From: an uncultured Flavobacteriaceae bacterium | Lineage (GTDB): Bacteria > Bacteroidota > Bacteroidia > Flavobacteriales > Flavobacteriaceae | DNA: 64,000 bases | NCBI GenBank assembly: GCA_913065125.1 | Contig: CAJYAG010000002.1 | Coordinates: forward strand, 186,001 to 250,000 | Direction: 5' to 3' | Shown here: positions 6,926 through 28,483 of the stretch, one piece after another | Layout of the letters: each line of letters opens with the position of its first letter | How positions within the stretch are numbered: the stretch's first letter is position 1 | Notes under the pieces: model-generated | What the model saw: the letters and a program-made list of their open reading frames with translations, nothing else | Told to the model about the DNA's origin: nothing | Database searches by the model: none | Position numbers and translations under genes: made by a program

Positions 6926-8098
6926 TTAGTATTTAATTACCTTAACTGTTTGTCCTTCTTTAACACTTCTTGCGCCTTCTTTAATAATTTGCACATTGTT
7001 TTTAATCCCTTCAACAACTTCTATAATATCGCCTTGTGTTCTTCCTGTTTTAATAATTCGACGTCTTGCAATACCTTCATTTTTAGCATTGCTGTTTTCT
7101 ACAACATATACATATTGATCTCCGTTTGCATTTTCGGAAATGATACTTTGCGGAATTAAAAAAGACTCTTTATTCGTATAATCGTTAATCTTTAACTTTG
7201 CTGTTAAATTAGGTTTGATGTGGTTTCCAATATTTGGAACATCAATTTCTACTTTAAAAGATCTATTATTTGGGTTGATGTAATTACCCACTTGTCTAAC
7301 TTTAGTTTGAATTGTTTTTCCTAAAACAGGAAAATACACCTCAACTGATTTTCCTTTTGTTATAAATGCGATATAACTCTCTGGTACCTCTGCCTCGATA
7401 TACATGTTAGAAAGGTTGATAATTCTAAAAACCTCTGACCCAGGACCTGGAGCAACAACACTTCCTTTTTCTTTAAATACTTCATCAATTACACCATCAA
7501 AAGGCGCAACAATAGTTGTTTTTTCTAATTGATTTTTTAATTGATTTACCATATTTACTTGTGACAAGTATGAAGTTTTTGATTGTAAATATTGCATTTC
7601 TGAACCAATTTTTTGATTCCATAATCGCTCTTGTCTATCAAACGTAGTTTTTGCTAATTGCAACTGTGTTTCTGCTTGTGCTAATTGCTGGCTTAAACCA
7701 CCGTCATTTATTGTTGCTAAAATGTCTCCTTTTTTAACCGATACTCCTTCTTTAACAAGTACAGATTCTAAAATTCCTGGCATTTCTGGGTACATAATTA
7801 TGTTTTGTTTGGTACTTACATTTCCTTGCAATTCTAAATAGTGATTAAATTCTGAAGTTTTAGTAATAAACGTTGTTACTAAAGGTAATTTTTTAATAGT
7901 ATCTAGTTTAGAAATAGCAACATTTAATGAATCTAATTGATTCACTATTAATTGCTGTTTACTTTCAATTTCGGTTTTCTTTTTTCTAATTTCTTCTAAG
8001 TTTCCTTTAGCAATAACAGCTTCAACTGTTTGTTCTTTTTTGCTACCGCACGATGCTAAAACAATAGTACTTGCTAAGATTAAATATATTTTCTTCAT
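6926..8098 (-). CDS. RND efflux periplasmic adaptor (HlyD/AcrA-type lipoprotein)
   Basis: The 390-residue protein begins with a lipoprotein signal ending LASC (Cys17 lipidated), followed by a coiled-coil stretch (about 28-65, rich in Lys, Glu and Gln). The barrel-sandwich or lipoyl half motif appears near residues 100-130 (PGILESVLVKEGVSVKKGD) and its partner near 198-215 (TTIVAPFDGVIDEVFKEKG), with an alpha-hairpin between them (QLAQAETQLQLAKTTFDRQ). The beta-barrel and membrane-proximal domains follow. It links the RND pump to the outer-membrane channel. Gaps of 8-9 bp to both neighbours point to one transcript. It is of usual length for the family, with no anomaly seen. Confidence 0.92.
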   Translation of the reverse strand: MKKIYLILASTIVLASCGSKKEQTVEAVIAKGNLEEIRKKKTEIESKQQLIVNQLDSLNVAISKLDTIKKLPLVTTFITKTSEFNHYLELQGNVSTKQNIIMYPEMPGILESVLVKEGVSVKKGDILATINDGGLSQQLAQAETQLQLAKTTFDRQERLWNQKIGSEMQYLQSKTSYLSQVNMVNQLKNQLEKTTIVAPFDGVIDEVFKEKGSVVAPGPGSEVFRIINLSNMYIEAEVPESYIAFITKGKSVEVYFPVLGKTIQTKVRQVGNYINPNNRSFKVEIDVPNIGNHIKPNLTAKLKINDYTNKESFLIPQSIISENANGDQYVYVVENSNAKNEGIARRRIIKTGRTQGDIIEVVEGIKNNVQIIKEGARSVKEGQTVKVIKY

Positions 8099-17751: not shown

Positions 17752-17752
17752 G

Positions 17753-17826
17753 CTCCTCCTCTAGGGCTCGAACCTAGGACCCTCTGATTAACAGTCAGAT
17801 GCTCTAACCAACTGAGCTAAGGAGGA
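17753..17826 (-). tRNA. tRNA-Asn (GTT)
   Basis: The 74-nt cloverleaf on the minus strand has acceptor TCCTCCT/AGGAGGA, D arm GCTC/GAGC, anticodon stem TCTGA/TCAGA with loop CTGTTAA (anticodon GTT), T stem CCTAG/CTAGG-type pairing and discriminator G73. CCA is not encoded in full. Confidence 0.95.
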
Positions 17827-20779: not shown

Positions 20780-21988
20780 ATGATTTTAGAAATGAAAGTT
20801 CCTTCTCCGGGAGAATCAATTACAGAAGTAGAAATTGCAACTTGGTTAGTTGAAGATGGAGATTATGTTGAAAAAGACCAACCAATTGCAGAAGTAGACT
20901 CTGACAAAGCAACCTTAGAATTACCTGCTGAAGAAAGCGGAATTATTACGCTAAAAGCAGAAGAAGGCGATGCCGTTGCTGTTGGCGAAGTAGTCTGTTT
21001 AATAGATACTAGCGCCGCAAAGCCCGAAGGGAAATCAACACCTAACGAAGAAGAAACTACAGAAAAAGTCGAAGTAAAGAAAGCTGAAGCTCCAAAAACA
21101 ACAACCTATGCAACCGGAACAGCCTCTCCTGCAGCTAAAAAAGTATTAGCTGAAAAAGGAATCGATGCAGCTTCTGTAAGCGGAACTGGAAAAGCTGGTA
21201 GAATTACGAAAGATGATGCTGTAAAAGCAGTGCCTTCTATGGGAACTCAGCCCGCAAACGGTTCAAGAGGAACAGAACGCAAAAAAATGTCTATGTTGCG
21301 TAGAAAAGTTGCTGAACGTTTGGTTGCTGTAAAAAGTGAAACTGCAATGTTAACTACATTTAATGAAGTAAACATGCAACCAATCTTTGACTTACGTTCT
21401 CAATACAAAGAAGATTTTAAAGCAAAACACGGTGTTGGATTAGGCTTTATGTCTTTCTTTACCTTAGCAGTTGTGAGAGCATTAAAAATGTATCCTGATG
21501 TAAATTCTATGATTGATGGAGATTTTCAAATCAAACACGATTTTCAAGATATTTCTATTGCAGTTTCTGGCCCTAAAGGATTAATGGTTCCTGTAATTAG
21601 AAATGCAGAAAATTTATCTTTTAGAGGTGTAGAATCTGAAGTAAAACGTTTGGCTTTAAGAGCTAGAGACGGACAAATAACTGTTGATGAAATGACAGGA
21701 GGAACATTTACCATTACTAATGGTGGAGTTTTTGGCTCAATGTTATCAACACCAATTATCAATCCTCCACAAAGTGGAATTTTAGGAATGCACAATATTG
21801 TAAACAGACCAATGGCTGTTGATGGACAAGTGGTAATTCAGCCAATAATGTATGTGGCATTATCTTATGATCACAGAATTATTGATGGGCGTGAATCTGT
21901 TGGATTCTTAGTTGCAATAAAAGAAGCATTAGAAAATCCAGTAGAATTATTGATGGATAATGATATTAAAAAAGCATTAGAAATGTAA
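20780..21988 (+). CDS. sucB: Dihydrolipoyl succinyltransferase (2-oxoglutarate dehydrogenase E2)
   Basis: E2 passes the succinyl group from lipoate to CoA and forms the complex core. The 402 residues show one lipoyl domain with Lys43 in [12 protein letters not shown], an Ala/Pro/Thr/Glu-rich linker (about 75-110), a peripheral-subunit-binding domain (about 112-150, [18 protein letters not shown] and [10 protein letters not shown]) and the catalytic domain. The catalytic His365 and Asp369 lie in [10 protein letters not shown]. The sequence ends ALEM, without the DL motif of some relatives. It is cotranscribed with sucA and ends at a terminator. Confidence 0.96.
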
Positions 21989-22026
21989 ATTGGATTTCTA
22001 GATTCTTAGAAATTTTAGAAATAAAT

Positions 22027-22055
22027 AATCCTGAGCATATTGCTCGGGATTTTTT
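22027..22055 (+). terminator. Rho-independent terminator after sucB
   Basis: AATCCTGAGCA pairs with TGCTCGGGATT (one T-G wobble) across a three-base loop and is followed by a T run. Confidence 0.8.
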
Positions 22056-22218
22056 AGTTATTATCAACTACTAACTTGTTAATAATAACCTATGTATACA
22101 ACTTTGCAAGCTACAATTACAAAAATTGTGTTAAAAACTGTTAAAAGACACTCTTTTAGAACCTCTTAATCGTTCTTTTTTGTAATATCGCACTACTTAA
22201 CTATAACAACCGAATCAA

Positions 22219-23769
22219 ATGAAAAAAACACTATTACTATTAAGCGTAATGTTTATAGCATTTTCTTGTAAAAAAGAAGCAACACATGAGGATGTTGTCG
22301 CTTATGGGAGCACTATTACCCAAGAAGAATTAAAAGAGCATTTATATGTTTATGCTTCTGATGAATTTGAAGGACGTGATACTGGGTCTCCAGGACAAAA
22401 AAAAGCTGTTGAATACATTAAAAAACACTACGAAGCTTTAGGAATTAATTCTTTAATTGATGGAAACTATTTTCAGAATGTACCATTAAACATTGTAAAA
22501 ACTCCAGAAGTAAGCATCTCTGTAAACGGAAAATCATTTAGTTATTTTGACGATTTTATTTCGCAAACAGCTGCAGCTACAGGAACTGTAAATGCTTCTG
22601 AAGTGGTGTATGCAGGTTACGGAATTGATGATGAAAAATATTCTGACTACAACAACCTTGATGTAAAAGGGAAAATAGTAGTTGTTAGAAGTGGAGAACC
22701 AACAGATAAAGCTGGTAACAATGTAATTACTGGTGATAAAAAAGCTTCAAAATGGTCTAATGGTCGTCAAGCACTTTCATCAAAAAGAAATGCAGCAAAA
22801 GACAACGGAGCAAAAGCTTTATTTTTTATGGATGACGCATTGTTTACGCGTTATTCAAAATTATATAAAGAACGTGAAGAAAAAGGAGGCAGTAATAGAT
22901 TGTCACTACCAACTAAGCAAGATGGTGATGCAGAAATGTACTATTTCTTAATTAGCGAAAAAATGGGGAAAGCATTAGTAAGTAACATTACAAAATCGAC
23001 TAAAACCGTTTCAGTTGCAACCAAGTTTGAAATGAATTTTAAAAGTATTACCGTTTCTCAACCATCAGAAAATGTTGTAGCAATGATTAAAGGTTCTGAA
23101 AAACCAGAAGAATACATTATTATTTCTGCACATTTAGATCACGTTGGTGTAAATGCAAAAGGAGAAATCTTTAATGGAGCAGATGATGATGGTTCTGGAA
23201 CAGTTTCTATGTTAGAAATTGCTCAAGCATTTAAAAAAGCGGTTGATAATGGTCACACACCTAAACGTTCTGTTATTTTCTTACACGTAACTGGAGAAGA
23301 AAAAGGATTATTAGGATCTAGATACTACACAGATTACGAGCCTTTAGTTCCTTTAGCAAATACAGTTGCTAACTTAAATATTGACATGGTTGGTCGTATT
23401 GATCCAAAACGTGAAGGAGACAGAAATTATATTTATTTAATTGGTGCAGATAAATTAAGTACAGAATTACACGAAGTTTCTGAACAAGTAAACAAAACGT
23501 TTACAAATATTGAGTTAGATTATACGTACAACGACGAAAACGACCCAAATCGTTTTTACTACCGTTCTGACCACTATAACTTTGCAAAAAATAACATTCC
23601 AATTATTTTCTATTTTAATGGAACACATGATGACTATCACAGACATACAGATACTCCAGACAAAATTAACTATGACTTGCTAGAAAACAGATCTCGTCTT
23701 GTTTTCCATACAGCTTGGGAGTTAGCTAACAGAGAAAACCGTATTGTTGTAGATAAGGCTACAGAATAA
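22219..23769 (+). CDS. M28-family zinc aminopeptidase, lipoprotein
   Basis: The 516-residue protein starts with a lipoprotein signal (MKKTLLLLSVMFIAFSC, lipidated Cys17) and so should sit on a membrane facing the periplasm or surface. Residues about 100-270 hold a PA-like insert. The M28 peptidase core shows the two-zinc ligands: His305 and Asp307 (AHLDHVG), the bridging Asp in ADDDGSG (322-324), the general base Glu360 and ligand Glu361 (TGEEKGLLGS), Asp389 (NIDMVG), and a His in DDYHRHTDT near 475-477. It probably trims amino acids from peptides. It is monocistronic between terminators; its promoter was not identified. Confidence 0.92.
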   Translation: MKKTLLLLSVMFIAFSCKKEATHEDVVAYGSTITQEELKEHLYVYASDEFEGRDTGSPGQKKAVEYIKKHYEALGINSLIDGNYFQNVPLNIVKTPEVSISVNGKSFSYFDDFISQTAAATGTVNASEVVYAGYGIDDEKYSDYNNLDVKGKIVVVRSGEPTDKAGNNVITGDKKASKWSNGRQALSSKRNAAKDNGAKALFFMDDALFTRYSKLYKEREEKGGSNRLSLPTKQDGDAEMYYFLISEKMGKALVSNITKSTKTVSVATKFEMNFKSITVSQPSENVVAMIKGSEKPEEYIIISAHLDHVGVNAKGEIFNGADDDGSGTVSMLEIAQAFKKAVDNGHTPKRSVIFLHVTGEEKGLLGSRYYTDYEPLVPLANTVANLNIDMVGRIDPKREGDRNYIYLIGADKLSTELHEVSEQVNKTFTNIELDYTYNDENDPNRFYYRSDHYNFAKNNIPIIFYFNGTHDDYHRHTDTPDKINYDLLENRSRLVFHTAWELANRENRIVVDKATE

Positions 23770-23790
23770 TAACATACATTCTTAAACTAT

Positions 23791-23819
23791 AAAAAGCCTT
23801 CCGTTGGGGAGGCTTTTTT
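23791..23819 (+). terminator. Rho-independent terminator after the M28 peptidase gene
   Basis: AAAAAGCCTTCC and GGGAGGCTTTTT pair (one wobble) around GTTG, followed by T. Confidence 0.85.
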
Positions 23820-23932
23820 ATTTACCCTTTCTATATAATTTGATAATATTAGATAAATTTTATTAAAACGGGAATCCTATTTGTTGCTTAACAAAATCTT
23901 TATGTCCAAACAATTTTATCCATTTTTTACAA

Positions 23933-23967
23933 ACTCATTTTTTGATTGTTTAACTTGCAACAAAAAT
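23933..23967 (+). repeat. 35-bp direct repeat, left copy
   Basis: This copy begins ACTCATTTTTTGATTG and ends CTTGCAACAAAAAT. It matches the copy at 26037-26071 in 34 of 35 positions (A against T at position 21). Each copy lies directly before a start codon: the LytTR gene here, the helicase gene for the other. The two copies bracket a three-gene block. Confidence 0.85.
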
Positions 23968-23982
23968 TTTCAAGGTTAAAAA

Positions 23983-24780
23983 ATGATGAAAGTAAATAAT
24001 ACAAAAAGTAAACTTCTAAATCCAAGTTTTAGATTATTAGTTGTGTTTTGTGTTATCTTATATGGTTTGGCTATTTTTCAAGATTACATTTTCTCTAAAG
24101 TGAAACCCGCAAGTTTTTATTGGTCAGACACCATGCTTTATAATATTTATTGGCTCTTATTTATCCCTTTTCTAAAAATTGCCAATTCCATTTATCATAA
24201 GGTTCAACCCAAATCATTAGTAAACAAAATTCTTTACGCTTCAATTACTGCATTTGTATTTAGCATATTGCATATATTTCTTTTTACTTCCATTTTTATT
24301 ATAGGAAGTCATATTATATTTCCTATTCCACACCGGTTTCTAACCATATTTAAAAATGCGATTTCTAATCAGTTACAAATTACAATTATCGCATATTTAT
24401 GTAGTCCTTTTGTTATTGATTACTTTAAAAGGAAAAGGCACACTCAAAAAGTCAACAAAACCATAATATTAAAAAACGGGACACGAAGAATTAAAATAGA
24501 CACTTCTTCAATTTTATTTATTAAAACAGACCGACCTTATACAAAGGTATATTCAAAGGATAAAAAATTTCTACACGATGAAAGCTTGAAAAAACTTGAA
24601 AAATTATTAGATCCTCAAATCTTTCTTAGAATCCACCGCTCTGCAATTCTTAATAAAAATCACATCACCGAATTGAAATCACGAAAAAATGGTGATTATG
24701 ATGGTATTTTAACAAATGGTCAAACTGTTCGGTTTAGCAGACATTATCGTCAGAACTGGAATGAGTTGTTAAACCACTAA
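23983..24780 (+). CDS. Membrane-bound LytTR-type DNA-binding regulator
   Basis: The 265-residue protein has four predicted membrane helices (about 17-33, 50-70, 83-107, 130-147) followed by a C-terminal LytTR DNA-binding domain (about 158-260). The LytTR part shows ILFIKTDRPYTKVYSKDKK, the LRIHRSAILNKNHI motif and RFSRHYRQNW. There is no receiver domain or histidine kinase beside it, so it is a one-component regulator that may sense a membrane or envelope signal directly. It is followed by genes for a secreted dioxygenase-like protein and a DoxX membrane protein on the same strand, whose control is its most likely task (inference). Two ATG codons stand at the start. Confidence 0.85.
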   Translation: MMKVNNTKSKLLNPSFRLLVVFCVILYGLAIFQDYIFSKVKPASFYWSDTMLYNIYWLLFIPFLKIANSIYHKVQPKSLVNKILYASITAFVFSILHIFLFTSIFIIGSHIIFPIPHRFLTIFKNAISNQLQITIIAYLCSPFVIDYFKRKRHTQKVNKTIILKNGTRRIKIDTSSILFIKTDRPYTKVYSKDKKFLHDESLKKLEKLLDPQIFLRIHRSAILNKNHITELKSRKNGDYDGILTNGQTVRFSRHYRQNWNELLNH

Positions 24781-24875
24781 GCTTTAAAACCAATCCTGTT
24801 AGCCTATTTTCTGATAGTTCCCTTTTCAACACATTAGATTTTTTGGACTTTTGATGTTCATTAAAATTTAAAACA

Positions 24876-25535
24876 ATGACTCATAAAAAAAACATTATAG
24901 CGTTATCCATAGCTATTTTATTCATTACAATTAACGTGTGTTCACAATCAACTAAAAAATATAATGCAAATTTAAAAACAGGTATTTCCTCAAAAAATAC
25001 GAATCAAAAAGATTGTAATTGGTGTGGAGCTTTTGAAGCTCCGGAAGATGTTTCTTGGAGAACTATTATTCCACCAAAAGAGGAACAAGGAGACAAACTA
25101 ATTATTTCTGGAACCATTTATTTGCCTGATGGTAAAACGCCTGTAAAAGATGTCATTATTTACGTTTATCACACCAACACGAAAGGAGTCTATCCAAAAA
25201 AAGGAAATGAAAAAGAAAATGGAAAACACCATGGATACTTGAGAGGATGGATGAAAACAAATTCAAATGGTAAGTATGAATTTGAGACCATTCGCCCTGC
25301 TCCTTATCGTACTCACGACGGAGAACCAGCACACATACATTATAATATTGAAGCTCCTGATTACCCTGAATATTGGTTAACTGGACTATGGTTTGCTGAT
25401 GATTATAGGGTGAATGAATATAAAGATAAAATTGAAAGAAATGGTGGATTTTCTAACATTATAACCTTAACAAAAGATGAAAACAATATCTTAAGAGGTA
25501 CAAGAAATATTATTCTAGAAAAATTTAATGATTAA
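24876..25535 (+). CDS. Exported intradiol ring-cleavage dioxygenase-like protein
   Basis: The 219-residue protein has an N-terminal export signal (hydrophobic stretch at about 8-20, then CSQS) and a beta-sandwich of the protocatechuate/catechol intradiol dioxygenase family. All four non-haem Fe(III) ligands can be placed by motif: Tyr106 (TKGVYPKK), Tyr144 (RPAPYRTHDG), His153 and His155 (PAHIHYNI). The WMKTNSNGKYEFETI strand also fits. Known intradiol enzymes are cytoplasmic and sit in aromatic degradation operons; this one is exported and no catabolic gene is near. The segment DCNWCGAFEAPEDVSW before the domain, with a CxxC pair, is characteristic of the extracellular subgroup. The substrate is unknown. 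The next gene (DoxX) starts 3 bp after its stop. Confidence 0.82.
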   Translation: MTHKKNIIALSIAILFITINVCSQSTKKYNANLKTGISSKNTNQKDCNWCGAFEAPEDVSWRTIIPPKEEQGDKLIISGTIYLPDGKTPVKDVIIYVYHTNTKGVYPKKGNEKENGKHHGYLRGWMKTNSNGKYEFETIRPAPYRTHDGEPAHIHYNIEAPDYPEYWLTGLWFADDYRVNEYKDKIERNGGFSNIITLTKDENNILRGTRNIILEKFND

Positions 25536-25538
25536 GTT

Positions 25539-25994
25539 ATGAATTCAATATCATTTTTAAACAAATCGATTTTTACTACCTCTGAAATAGGTGTCAGTTT
25601 TAGTTTACTTATAGTAAGGATTGGAATATCATTTTCTATGATTTATTTACATGGATATCCAAGACTTATAAATTTCAGTACTATTCATACTGAATTTGCC
25701 GATCCATTAGGTATCGGAACCACCTTAAGTTTAAGCCTTGTTGTGTTTGCCGAATTTTTTTGTTCTACATTCTTAATAGTTGGGTTGTTTACAAGGTGGA
25801 GCTGTATTCCATTAATAATTACAATGATCGTTGCGACTTGGGTAGTTAATGGCGGAAAAGGTTTTATTTTTCAAGAAAAGAGTTTTATTTTTTTAATTAC
25901 CTACATCTGTCTATTAATAAGCGGAGGAGGTTATTTTTCTTTAGATTATCTACTATTGGGTAGGAAAATGAAAACTAAAAAACAAACACACTAG
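25539..25994 (+). CDS. DoxX-family membrane protein
   Basis: The 151-residue protein has four hydrophobic segments (about 20-42, 62-83, 88-105, 112-135) and the DoxX-type features: a short N-terminal amphipathic part, then LIVRIGISFSMIYLHGYPRL, VVFAEFFCSTFLIVGLFTRW and GGGYFSLDYLL at the end. DoxX proteins accompany quinone- or thiol-linked redox enzymes, but most have no proven activity. The 3-bp gap to the dioxygenase-like gene suggests translational coupling and a joint role at the cell envelope. Confidence 0.85.
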   Translation: MNSISFLNKSIFTTSEIGVSFSLLIVRIGISFSMIYLHGYPRLINFSTIHTEFADPLGIGTTLSLSLVVFAEFFCSTFLIVGLFTRWSCIPLIITMIVATWVVNGGKGFIFQEKSFIFLITYICLLISGGGYFSLDYLLLGRKMKTKKQTH

Positions 25995-26036
25995 CAAAAC
26001 CTCTAAATCAAAAACAAATTTCTTTAATTTTTATAC

Positions 26037-26071
26037 ACTCATTTTTTGATTGTTTATCTTGCAACAAAAAT
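26037..26071 (+). repeat. 35-bp direct repeat, right copy
   Basis: This is the partner of the repeat at 23933-23967, 2,104 bp away and in the same orientation, with 34 of 35 bases identical. It ends 6 bp before the ATG of the helicase gene. Confidence 0.85.
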
Positions 26072-26077
26072 GCTACC

Positions 26078-28483
26078 ATGTCAAAAAATAATGAATTAGA
26101 ACTTGCTTTAGATTTTATAGAAAAGACAGATCGAAATTTGTTTATCACCGGAAAAGCAGGAACAGGAAAAACTACTTTTTTACATAAAATTAAAAACGAA
26201 TCTTTAAAAAGAATGGTGGTGATTGCGCCAACTGGTGTTGCTGCAATTAACGCAAAAGGTGTTACCATTCATTCGTTTTTTCAAATGCCTTTTGGTCCAA
26301 TTTTACCAAATCAAATTGCAAATACTTCTAACCAACAACGTAAATTTTCTCGAACAAAAATTGATATTATCAAATCGTTAGATTTAATTATTATCGATGA
26401 AATTTCTATGGTTAGAGCCGATTTACTAGACGGAATTGACCAAGTGATGCGACGCTATAAAAACCGAAATAAAGTGTTTGGCGGTGCGCAAGTTTTAATG
26501 ATTGGAGATTTACAACAATTAGCGCCAGTTGTAAAACCAAACGAATGGAGTTTGCTACAACAACATTATAAAACGGTTTATTTTTTTAGCTCAAAGGCCT
26601 ATCAAGAAGCCAATGTGGTTTCTATAGAATTGAAACATATTTATCGTCAAAAAAACGAAGATTTCATCAAAATTCTAAATGAAATTAGAAATGATAATTT
26701 ATCTGAAGCATCAGCAAAAACATTAAACGAACGATACAATCCAACTTTTTCTCCTAAAAAAGACGATGGTTATATTACCTTAACAACACATAATAATAGA
26801 GCAAATGCCATCAACAATTTAGAGCTTGAAAAATTAAAAACCAAAACTTCTTTTTTTAAAGCGGATATTTCTGGAAAATTCAACGAAAACTCTTTTCCGA
26901 ACGATGAAAAACTAGCGCTAAAAGTTGGTGCGCAAGTCATGTTTATCAAAAACGATTCTTCGCAAGAAAAAAGATATTACAACGGAAAAATTGGAATTAT
27001 TACAGACATTTCTAAAGAAACAGTAACTGTGCAATGTGCCAATGAAATCGACGAAATTGTGACCGAAAAAGAAACGTGGGAAAACATCAACTACTCTATT
27101 AATGATGAAACCAAAGATATAAAAGAAGATATTACCGGTTCGTTTTCTCAAATCCCGTTGCGTTTGGCTTGGGCAATTACCATCCATAAAAGTCAAGGTT
27201 TAACCTTCGAAAAAGCAATTATTGATGCCGAAGCTTCTTTTGCGCACGGACAAACCTATGTTGCGTTAAGTAGATGTACTTCGTTAGAAGGTATTGTCTT
27301 GAAGACAAAAATTAGTAGCAACGCCATTATTAATGATGCAAAAGTGGGTTCGTTTAATAAAAGTGTGGAAGAAAATCATCCAGATGAAAGTGTTTTAATC
27401 GAATCTGAAAAACAATTTCAACTTAATTTAATTTCAGAATTGTTTGATTATCAACAATTTTTATATCCAACAACAAGATTAATTGACATTTTTTATAAAA
27501 ACAGAACGAGTATAAAAGGCGACGTAATTGAGCATTTACAAATTATAAAAGACAACGGAATTGTAGCATTGATGAAAGTTGCAAACGGATTTAAAATTCA
27601 GTTAAAAACAGTTTCAGAAGCAGCAATTTTACCAGAAAACAGTTCTTTAATTCAGGAACGATTTACAAAAGCAGTTGATTATTTTTTAACACAAACAATC
27701 AAAAATATCGTTCAGCCTTTGTCAAAAATTTCTTTTTCATCAGATAACAAAGCGGTGAAAAAAGATTTTGACAAGCAGTTTGATGCATTACAAGAAGTGC
27801 TCACGGAAAAAGTTTTTGCTCTTAAAAAAATGACTGAAGGTTTTACTACAAAAACGTATTTGCAAGTTAGAGCAAACGCAGTTTTACAAAATGTAGAAAA
27901 ACCAAAAAAGAAGAAGGTTGCTTCTAAAAGAGACCCAATTATCGCCTTAAAATTGAGAGAATTGAGAGATGATATTGCCAAAGCAGAAAACATTCCTCAT
28001 TTTCAAATTTTTACACAAGAAACGTTATACTTACTATGTGATGAACTTCCTAGAACAGAAAAAGAATTGCTTAAAATAAAAGGAATGGGTAAAATCCGAG
28101 TTCAAAAATATGGCGAAGAAATTCTAGAATTGATAAATTCTTACTGTCAAGAAAATGGTATCAATCATTTAAATCAACAGAAAAAAGAAGATAAAAAACC
28201 AACGAAACAAATTTCATTTGAGCTGTTTAAAAGCGGGTTATCGATAAAAGAAATTGCCAAAGAGCGCAGTTTAAAAAGCAACACTATAGAAAGTCATTTG
28301 GCAAGTTATATTCCGTCTGGAGAAATTGATGTTTTAGAATTAATTGCACTAAAACGCTATAACAAAATTATAAAAGCAATTGAAGAAACAACGTTTAAAA
28401 ACTTAACAGAACTCAAAGAAAAAGTAGATAAGAGTTTTACTTTTATGGAGTTAAGAATGGTGTTATTATCAATGGAAAATTAA
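26078..28483 (+). CDS. Pif1-like superfamily 1 helicase with HRDC and HTH tail
   Basis: The 801-residue protein begins with an ATPase core: Walker A GKAGTGKTT (residues about 25-33), the VIAPTGVAAINA motif, Walker B LIIIDEISMV, GGAQVLMIGDLQQLAPV and the late SF1B motifs AITIHKSQGLTF and YVALSRCTSLEGI near 370-410. After a middle region there is an HRDC-like domain (about 635-690, ending LKIKGMGKIRVQKYGEEIL) and a C-terminal helix-turn-helix (about 710-760, SGLSIKEIAKERSLKSNTIESHL), a pair also seen at the end of RecQ proteins. It probably unwinds forked or structured DNA during replication or repair. It is a single gene between the right repeat copy and a terminator. Confidence 0.9.
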   Translation: MSKNNELELALDFIEKTDRNLFITGKAGTGKTTFLHKIKNESLKRMVVIAPTGVAAINAKGVTIHSFFQMPFGPILPNQIANTSNQQRKFSRTKIDIIKSLDLIIIDEISMVRADLLDGIDQVMRRYKNRNKVFGGAQVLMIGDLQQLAPVVKPNEWSLLQQHYKTVYFFSSKAYQEANVVSIELKHIYRQKNEDFIKILNEIRNDNLSEASAKTLNERYNPTFSPKKDDGYITLTTHNNRANAINNLELEKLKTKTSFFKADISGKFNENSFPNDEKLALKVGAQVMFIKNDSSQEKRYYNGKIGIITDISKETVTVQCANEIDEIVTEKETWENINYSINDETKDIKEDITGSFSQIPLRLAWAITIHKSQGLTFEKAIIDAEASFAHGQTYVALSRCTSLEGIVLKTKISSNAIINDAKVGSFNKSVEENHPDESVLIESEKQFQLNLISELFDYQQFLYPTTRLIDIFYKNRTSIKGDVIEHLQIIKDNGIVALMKVANGFKIQLKTVSEAAILPENSSLIQERFTKAVDYFLTQTIKNIVQPLSKISFSSDNKAVKKDFDKQFDALQEVLTEKVFALKKMTEGFTTKTYLQVRANAVLQNVEKPKKKKVASKRDPIIALKLRELRDDIAKAENIPHFQIFTQETLYLLCDELPRTEKELLKIKGMGKIRVQKYGEEILELINSYCQENGINHLNQQKKEDKKPTKQISFELFKSGLSIKEIAKERSLKSNTIESHLASYIPSGEIDVLELIALKRYNKIIKAIEETTFKNLTELKEKVDKSFTFMELRMVLLSMEN

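Follow-up and report, generated by a model that had tools for sequence, protein, structure and literature searches.

The window, a 64,000-nt stretch of the genome of an uncultured Flavobacteriaceae bacterium, carries a three-gene operon between two direct copies of one leader sequence, 5' of a helicase gene. The identities proposed earlier for the genes of this locus from the letters alone (LytTR, dioxygenase, DoxX, M28 peptidase and helicase) were all confirmed by domain search. The features are as follows.

20780-21988, + strand: sucB-like gene, which is conserved and bounds the hotspot on the left (66 of 75 congener stretches retain the order sucA-sucB-helicase)
22027-22056, + strand: terminator-like hairpin 3' of sucB, read from the sequence and present at the same position in short empty sites
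22115-23824, + strand: M28 peptidase gene together with flanks of its own, likewise cargo (homologous to the M28 loci of genomes G020, G168 and G090; absent from the site in congeners)
23908-23967, + strand: leader copy 1, a displaced putative helicase promoter region (35-nt core at 23933-23967)
23951-23958, + strand: -7-like box TAACTTGC, 32 nt 5' of the LytTR ATG (box conserved in helicase leaders)
23968-23990, + strand: junction stretch between copy 1 and the LytTR start region (84-nt alignment, junction comparison)
23983-24780, + strand: LytTR regulator (PF04397), first gene of the operon that was probably acquired, with relatives in other genera
24876-25535, + strand: intradiol-type dioxygenase (PF00775)
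25539-25994, + strand: DoxX protein (PF07681)
26012-26071, + strand: leader copy 2, the in-place putative helicase promoter region (core at 26037-26071; conserved in congeners)
26055-26062, + strand: -7-like box TATCTTGC of the helicase (conservation of TAnCTTGC across leaders)
26078-28483, + strand: PIF1-like helicase carrying HRDC and HTH_40 domains (domain search), which is conserved and bounds the hotspot on the right

The 35-bp direct repeat to which the sequence-only reading had drawn attention is real. Between the copies at 23933-23967 and 26037-26071, 34 of 35 positions are identical and one differs, and each copy stands, as had been said, just 5' of a start codon, that of LytTR or that of the helicase. 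When both were extended leftward, to 23908 and 26012, they were identical at 52 of 60 positions (8 mismatches), and BLAST placed them in an 84-nt alignment of 82% identity that covered both copies and reached into the LytTR and helicase starts. The repeat pattern was matched in none of 100 shuffled versions of the window. A search of the whole genome from which the window was taken (2.66 Mb, 6 contigs) returned the second copy at E = 1.6e-14; because the next-ranked match was 21 nt long with E = 0.008, the repeat is counted as two copies in this genome, with none beyond the locus. The junction stretch at 23968-23990 is possibly a remnant of the helicase start, or else a short sequence common with LytTR starts. 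No tRNA was found at the block junctions, the sole tRNA lying at 17752-17826, and an Rfam search of 21900-26600 gave no match.

Leaders of the helicase gene were compared across 75 congeners and the window. The box TAnCTTGC lay within 60 nt of the helicase start in 62 of these 76 leaders, and at -22 in 42 of the 62; among random 60-mers from the same loci, 0.7% carried it. It is similar, not identical, to the Bacteroidetes -7 consensus TAnnTTTG (PMC6414381, PMC2483708). Since the box is conserved in the helicase leaders of congeners, copy 2 is read as the native helicase leader, and the repeat is best described as two copies of the native putative promoter leader of the helicase; the earlier suggestion that this leader is present twice agrees with that description. 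In the leader alignment each copy retained bases common to G020 and G090 that the other had changed. Both were about equally close to the leader of G020, so donor and recipient alleles in the window are inseparable.

The LytTR-dioxygenase-DoxX operon is absent from the sucB-helicase site in 105 congener stretches (75 and a further 30, some of them short or lacking sucB). Dioxygenase and DoxX were present in none of the 105, and LytTR gave three weak matches (27-29% identity) in the first 75. The best match to the dioxygenase within the genus (59 relatives) was 36-41% identical; among 397 genomes of the family there was one match of 72%, in genome G409, and the next was 55%. Relatives of the operon were sought in a collection of 84,980 genomes using two LytTR peptide patterns. 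Seven genomes held LytTR relatives. The complete three-gene operon was present in five of them (Aquimarina atlantica, Maribacter antarcticus, a Leeuwenhoekiella MAG, an uncultured Flavobacteriaceae and a Bacteroidia MAG, the last being G409), while in the other two LytTR was accompanied by a dioxygenase of more distant kinship. Against the five carriers, nucleotide homology began 12-21 nt inside LytTR and ended 14-31 nt before the DoxX stop, and the foreign segment therefore nearly fills the space between the two leaders. The sequences 5' of LytTR in the seven relatives, as printed, contained no copy of the helicase leader. At 28-31.5% GC, the block does not stand out strikingly from the window, which has 30.9%. 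Outside the window the operon was seen in other genera only, and on these comparisons it was most probably acquired from another lineage. The block had been described as free of integrase and transposase genes, and its domain search likewise saw none.

As a separate observation, LytTR of G409, which belongs to another genus, is closely preceded by an imperfect inverted repeat with GTTGGCA at its end (L137 4720-4880; the same stretch in L207). By eye this repeat resembles a recombination site of the cassette type.

Within the genus, the interval between sucB and the helicase is an insertion hotspot without recognised mobile-element genes. In the 66 congeners that keep the gene order the gap measured 100-4916 nt (median 1541), while the sucA-sucB spacer measured 38-273 nt in 64 of the 66 and 992 and 1268 nt in the other two. 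Nine gaps were shorter than 250 nt, eight of them with the TAnCTTGC leader kept, and the empty site as read in these short gaps consists of the sucB stop, the terminator hairpin, the leader and the helicase. Cargo, counted as open reading frames of 100 aa or longer, came to 122 in 57 families. Pfam domains were assigned by scanning 48 proteins individually (15 without a match) and, for nine larger families, from a tally showing 25 of 63 Pfam families; metabolism, transport, regulation and surface functions were represented, together with one phage-type Bro-N domain, and neither an integrase nor a transposase was recognised among the scanned proteins. PADLOC matched HTH_VI in four members and otherwise gave single matches, and a defence-island pattern was not found.

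Homologous recombination in the flanking core genes, which should be raised at a hotspot of this kind, was examined in 66 genomes (2145 pairs, 226 with cargo in common). On the helicase side, pairs that share cargo were closer than expected, as low a value being reached in 79 of 2000 permutations; at sucB the effect was reversed, 1996 of 2000 permutations being lower or equal. In each of four relatives compared by sliding identity, the values were higher close to the helicase 5' end, a pattern that fits constraint.

G020 is the closest congener found, with a helicase 94% identical to that of the window; it is without the block and has one leader copy, in keeping with the proposal that the three genes were inserted before the helicase. 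The empty site that had been predicted, with one repeat between the M28 peptidase and helicase genes, was not found because the M28 gene is cargo too: it was present at the sucB-helicase site in none of the same 105 congener stretches. The proposed comparison with relatives was thus right about the single leader where the block is absent and wrong about the empty site, which is sucB-terminator-leader-helicase without M28. Orthologues of the M28 gene lie elsewhere in the genomes of G168 (87%), G090 (84%) and G020 (83%), with homology over about 22115-23824, and the genes to the left of the G020 and G168 orthologues have their counterparts on another contig of the window's genome, where M28 does not adjoin them. 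The order of identity differs from that of sucA (G020 93%, G168 89%, G090 78%), which suggests that M28 was gained from a related lineage, and the gene appears to have been relocated. For this apparent relocation the recorded positions are 22115-23824 in the window and G000:C1:384825-386290.

Displaced pieces of the conserved edges were sought in other congeners by searching each gap for the sucB and helicase edges of its own genome (72 gaps on the helicase side). Thirteen real matches scored above the best null match (33.7 bits), the three strongest being in G183, the window and G064. The gap of G183 contained 129 nt of helicase codons 44-86 (97%), and that of G064 contained 42 nt of the sucB 3' end (97.6%) followed by sequence like the post-sucB DNA of other species. 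The ten weaker matches also exceeded the best null, and nine were inspected. Seven of these were rejected as terminator hairpins (L150 twice, L168, L144, L147, L154, L133); that in L142 was leader-like and was later recovered by a leader profile, and that in L165 was a possible sucB end (35 nt, 86%).

The leader profile was built from the 62 in-place helicase leaders. It detected displaced leaders in G143 (E = 2.4e-9), the window (2.4e-6), G001 (4.5e-4) and G029 (0.003), and weakly in G117 (E = 0.05); in 426 kb of neighbouring congener DNA, used as control, the best match had E = 0.48. Each of the five displaced leaders has a cargo gene on its own strand that starts within 80 nt of where the leader ends. 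An apparent second leader in G147 was rejected as a 119-nt identical overlap of two contigs, and a leader match in L229 was discarded because, through a slicing artefact, it was the in-place leader itself. No displaced leader was found in 30 further genomes, of which 17 had sucB in reach and 11 had the TAnCTTGC leader that the profile describes. The displaced leader of G029 scored 67.1 bits against in-place leaders of other species and 31.9 against its own; for G001 the values were 61.7 and 34.6. Judged by these scores, the displaced and in-place leaders of G029 and G001 are evidently of different ancestry. In G143 the leader is 5' of the Bro-N gene and the helicase retains only AAAAAAGCTACAATG; in its nearest relative found, G147, the leader is uninterrupted. 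The helicase of G117, like that of G143, is without a complete leader of its own, and therefore not every case has two leaders. The event in the window is one instance of repeated leader displacement at the hotspot.

G143 and G147 also form a clean before/after pair for the Bro-N gene between leader and helicase start, and AAAAAGCTA was noted on both sides of that gene in G143 (L173, oriented 8011-8063 and before the helicase).

The likeliest origin of the arrangement in the window is insertion by one-sided homology. The incoming DNA would have carried the operon, a leader and the helicase 5' end, and would have joined the hotspot on the right by homologous recombination within the helicase and on the left by an illegitimate join just 3' of the resident leader. 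The resident leader would then have stayed as copy 1, placed to drive the new operon, and copy 2 would have remained with the helicase. In other congeners resident edge pieces (leader, helicase fragment or sucB tail) would have been left in the same way. We infer this course, and with it which copy is the older, and regard it as having about an even chance of being correct; promoter activity of copy 1 for the operon is likewise putative. That the displaced leaders of G029 and G001 are closer to those of other species suggests replacement of the resident edge by incoming DNA. Products of homology-facilitated illegitimate recombination would be expected to show 3-10 bp of microhomology at the non-homologous junction, loss of resident DNA about as long as the insertion, and a requirement for RecA. 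A candidate microhomology for the left join is the AAAAA/ATGA-type similarity between the helicase start and the LytTR starts of relatives.

The main rival for the window is promoter capture by tandem duplication, in which the operon landed without a promoter to the left of the leader, the unit of operon and leader was duplicated, and the first operon copy was then lost. This course yields exactly the order leader-operon-leader-helicase, it has a precedent among transferred genes (PMC11111574), and the equal closeness of the two leaders to that of G020 accords with it. However, the sequence to the left of copy 1 retains no trace of an earlier operon copy, 8 of 60 bases differ between the two leaders, and the leaders of G029 and G001 have different nearest relatives. 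We consider it possible but fairly unlikely.

The repeat had alternatively been taken for a regulatory element common to both genes; selection would then have favoured one promoter or control site in front of each. Each copy is indeed just 5' of a start codon and has a -7-like box, and the displaced leaders elsewhere are also close 5' of cargo starts. A regulon would be expected to show many promoter copies, and is not supported as the genome has two only; moreover, the 426 kb of neighbouring congener DNA held no leader-like match better than E 0.48, the identity of the copies includes non-consensus positions, and the relatives of the operon are without such a leader. With the leader tied to the helicase in congeners, this reading was weakened and is now quite improbable.

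Because cargo starts within 80 nt behind a leader copy in five genomes (one weak), the helicase leader may also be a preferred entry point, with some process, or an open promoter catching incoming single strands, directing insertion behind the promoter. Such targeting we hold to be very improbable; if it did occur, insertion just behind this promoter would express newcomers at once. Least probable is a site-specific mobile element with attachment sites and its enzyme acting in trans: the direct repeats bracket the block closely and in the same five genomes the cargo begins shortly after the leader, but the duplicated edges elsewhere are other sequences (leader, helicase codons 44-86, sucB 3' end) and vary in place and length, so there is no constant core, a recombinase was recognised neither in the block nor among the scanned cargo proteins, no viral contig had the exact leader core, and G143 retains one leader only. 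The likeness of the repeats to attachment sites, noted earlier, is thus not borne out.

Hotspots, illegitimate recombination and promoter capture are already known. In homology-facilitated illegitimate recombination a homologous anchor on one side is combined with a non-homologous join on the other (PMC3240628), and such recombination has been given as the explanation of displaced immunity genes in Vibrio T6SS clusters (PMC5361080). The one-sided-homology reading of the window resembles those clusters in its proposed conserved anchor, its homology-free other side and the resident pieces left beside the newcomer; it differs in the nature of the remaining piece, a promoter leader (or the end of a gene) that the cargo can use, and in that the mechanism here is inferred only. 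Hotspots without mobile elements have been described (PMC5635113), and the present interval shares with them conserved core flanks, highly variable content and the lack of a recognised recombinase. Recombination and repair genes have been noted next to those hotspots, and the helicase has such a position here; the present comparison is between species of one genus and not within species. As in the promoter capture of PMC11111574, a transferred gene stands behind a copy of a resident promoter; unlike that case there is no second operon copy, and the leaders differ in ancestry in two related genomes. Small variable genome segments, a minority flanked by direct repeats, have also been reported (PMC2884548). 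They are likewise short insertions without known mobile elements, some of them repeat-flanked, but here one site was hit repeatedly and the repeat is the promoter of a core gene. In the open-licence literature, searched with few terms, no account was found of a hotspot at which the promoter of one core gene is displaced and reused time and again. The locus suggests how a hotspot free of mobile elements may express its cargo, the core gene's promoter staying and the newcomer reusing it. If so, earlier insertions could be recognised by the displaced promoters that they left as scars, and recombination-driven gene gain could be tested on the series of such events that this interval provides in one genus.

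Two minor observations concern the sequence between cargo genes. The stretch GGATG(T/C)(C/T)GTTTCAATC(A/T)GGGCTAAA recurs in several gaps (L128 2970-3040, the gap tail of L170 and the gap of L186) and appears to be an intergenic repeat that is widespread in these genomes. In G183 two similar intergenic stretches follow cargo genes (L128 4595-4812 and 5468-5562; 74% over 95 nt), one of them directly 3' of the helicase fragment, and they are perhaps members of a repeat family marking cargo ends.
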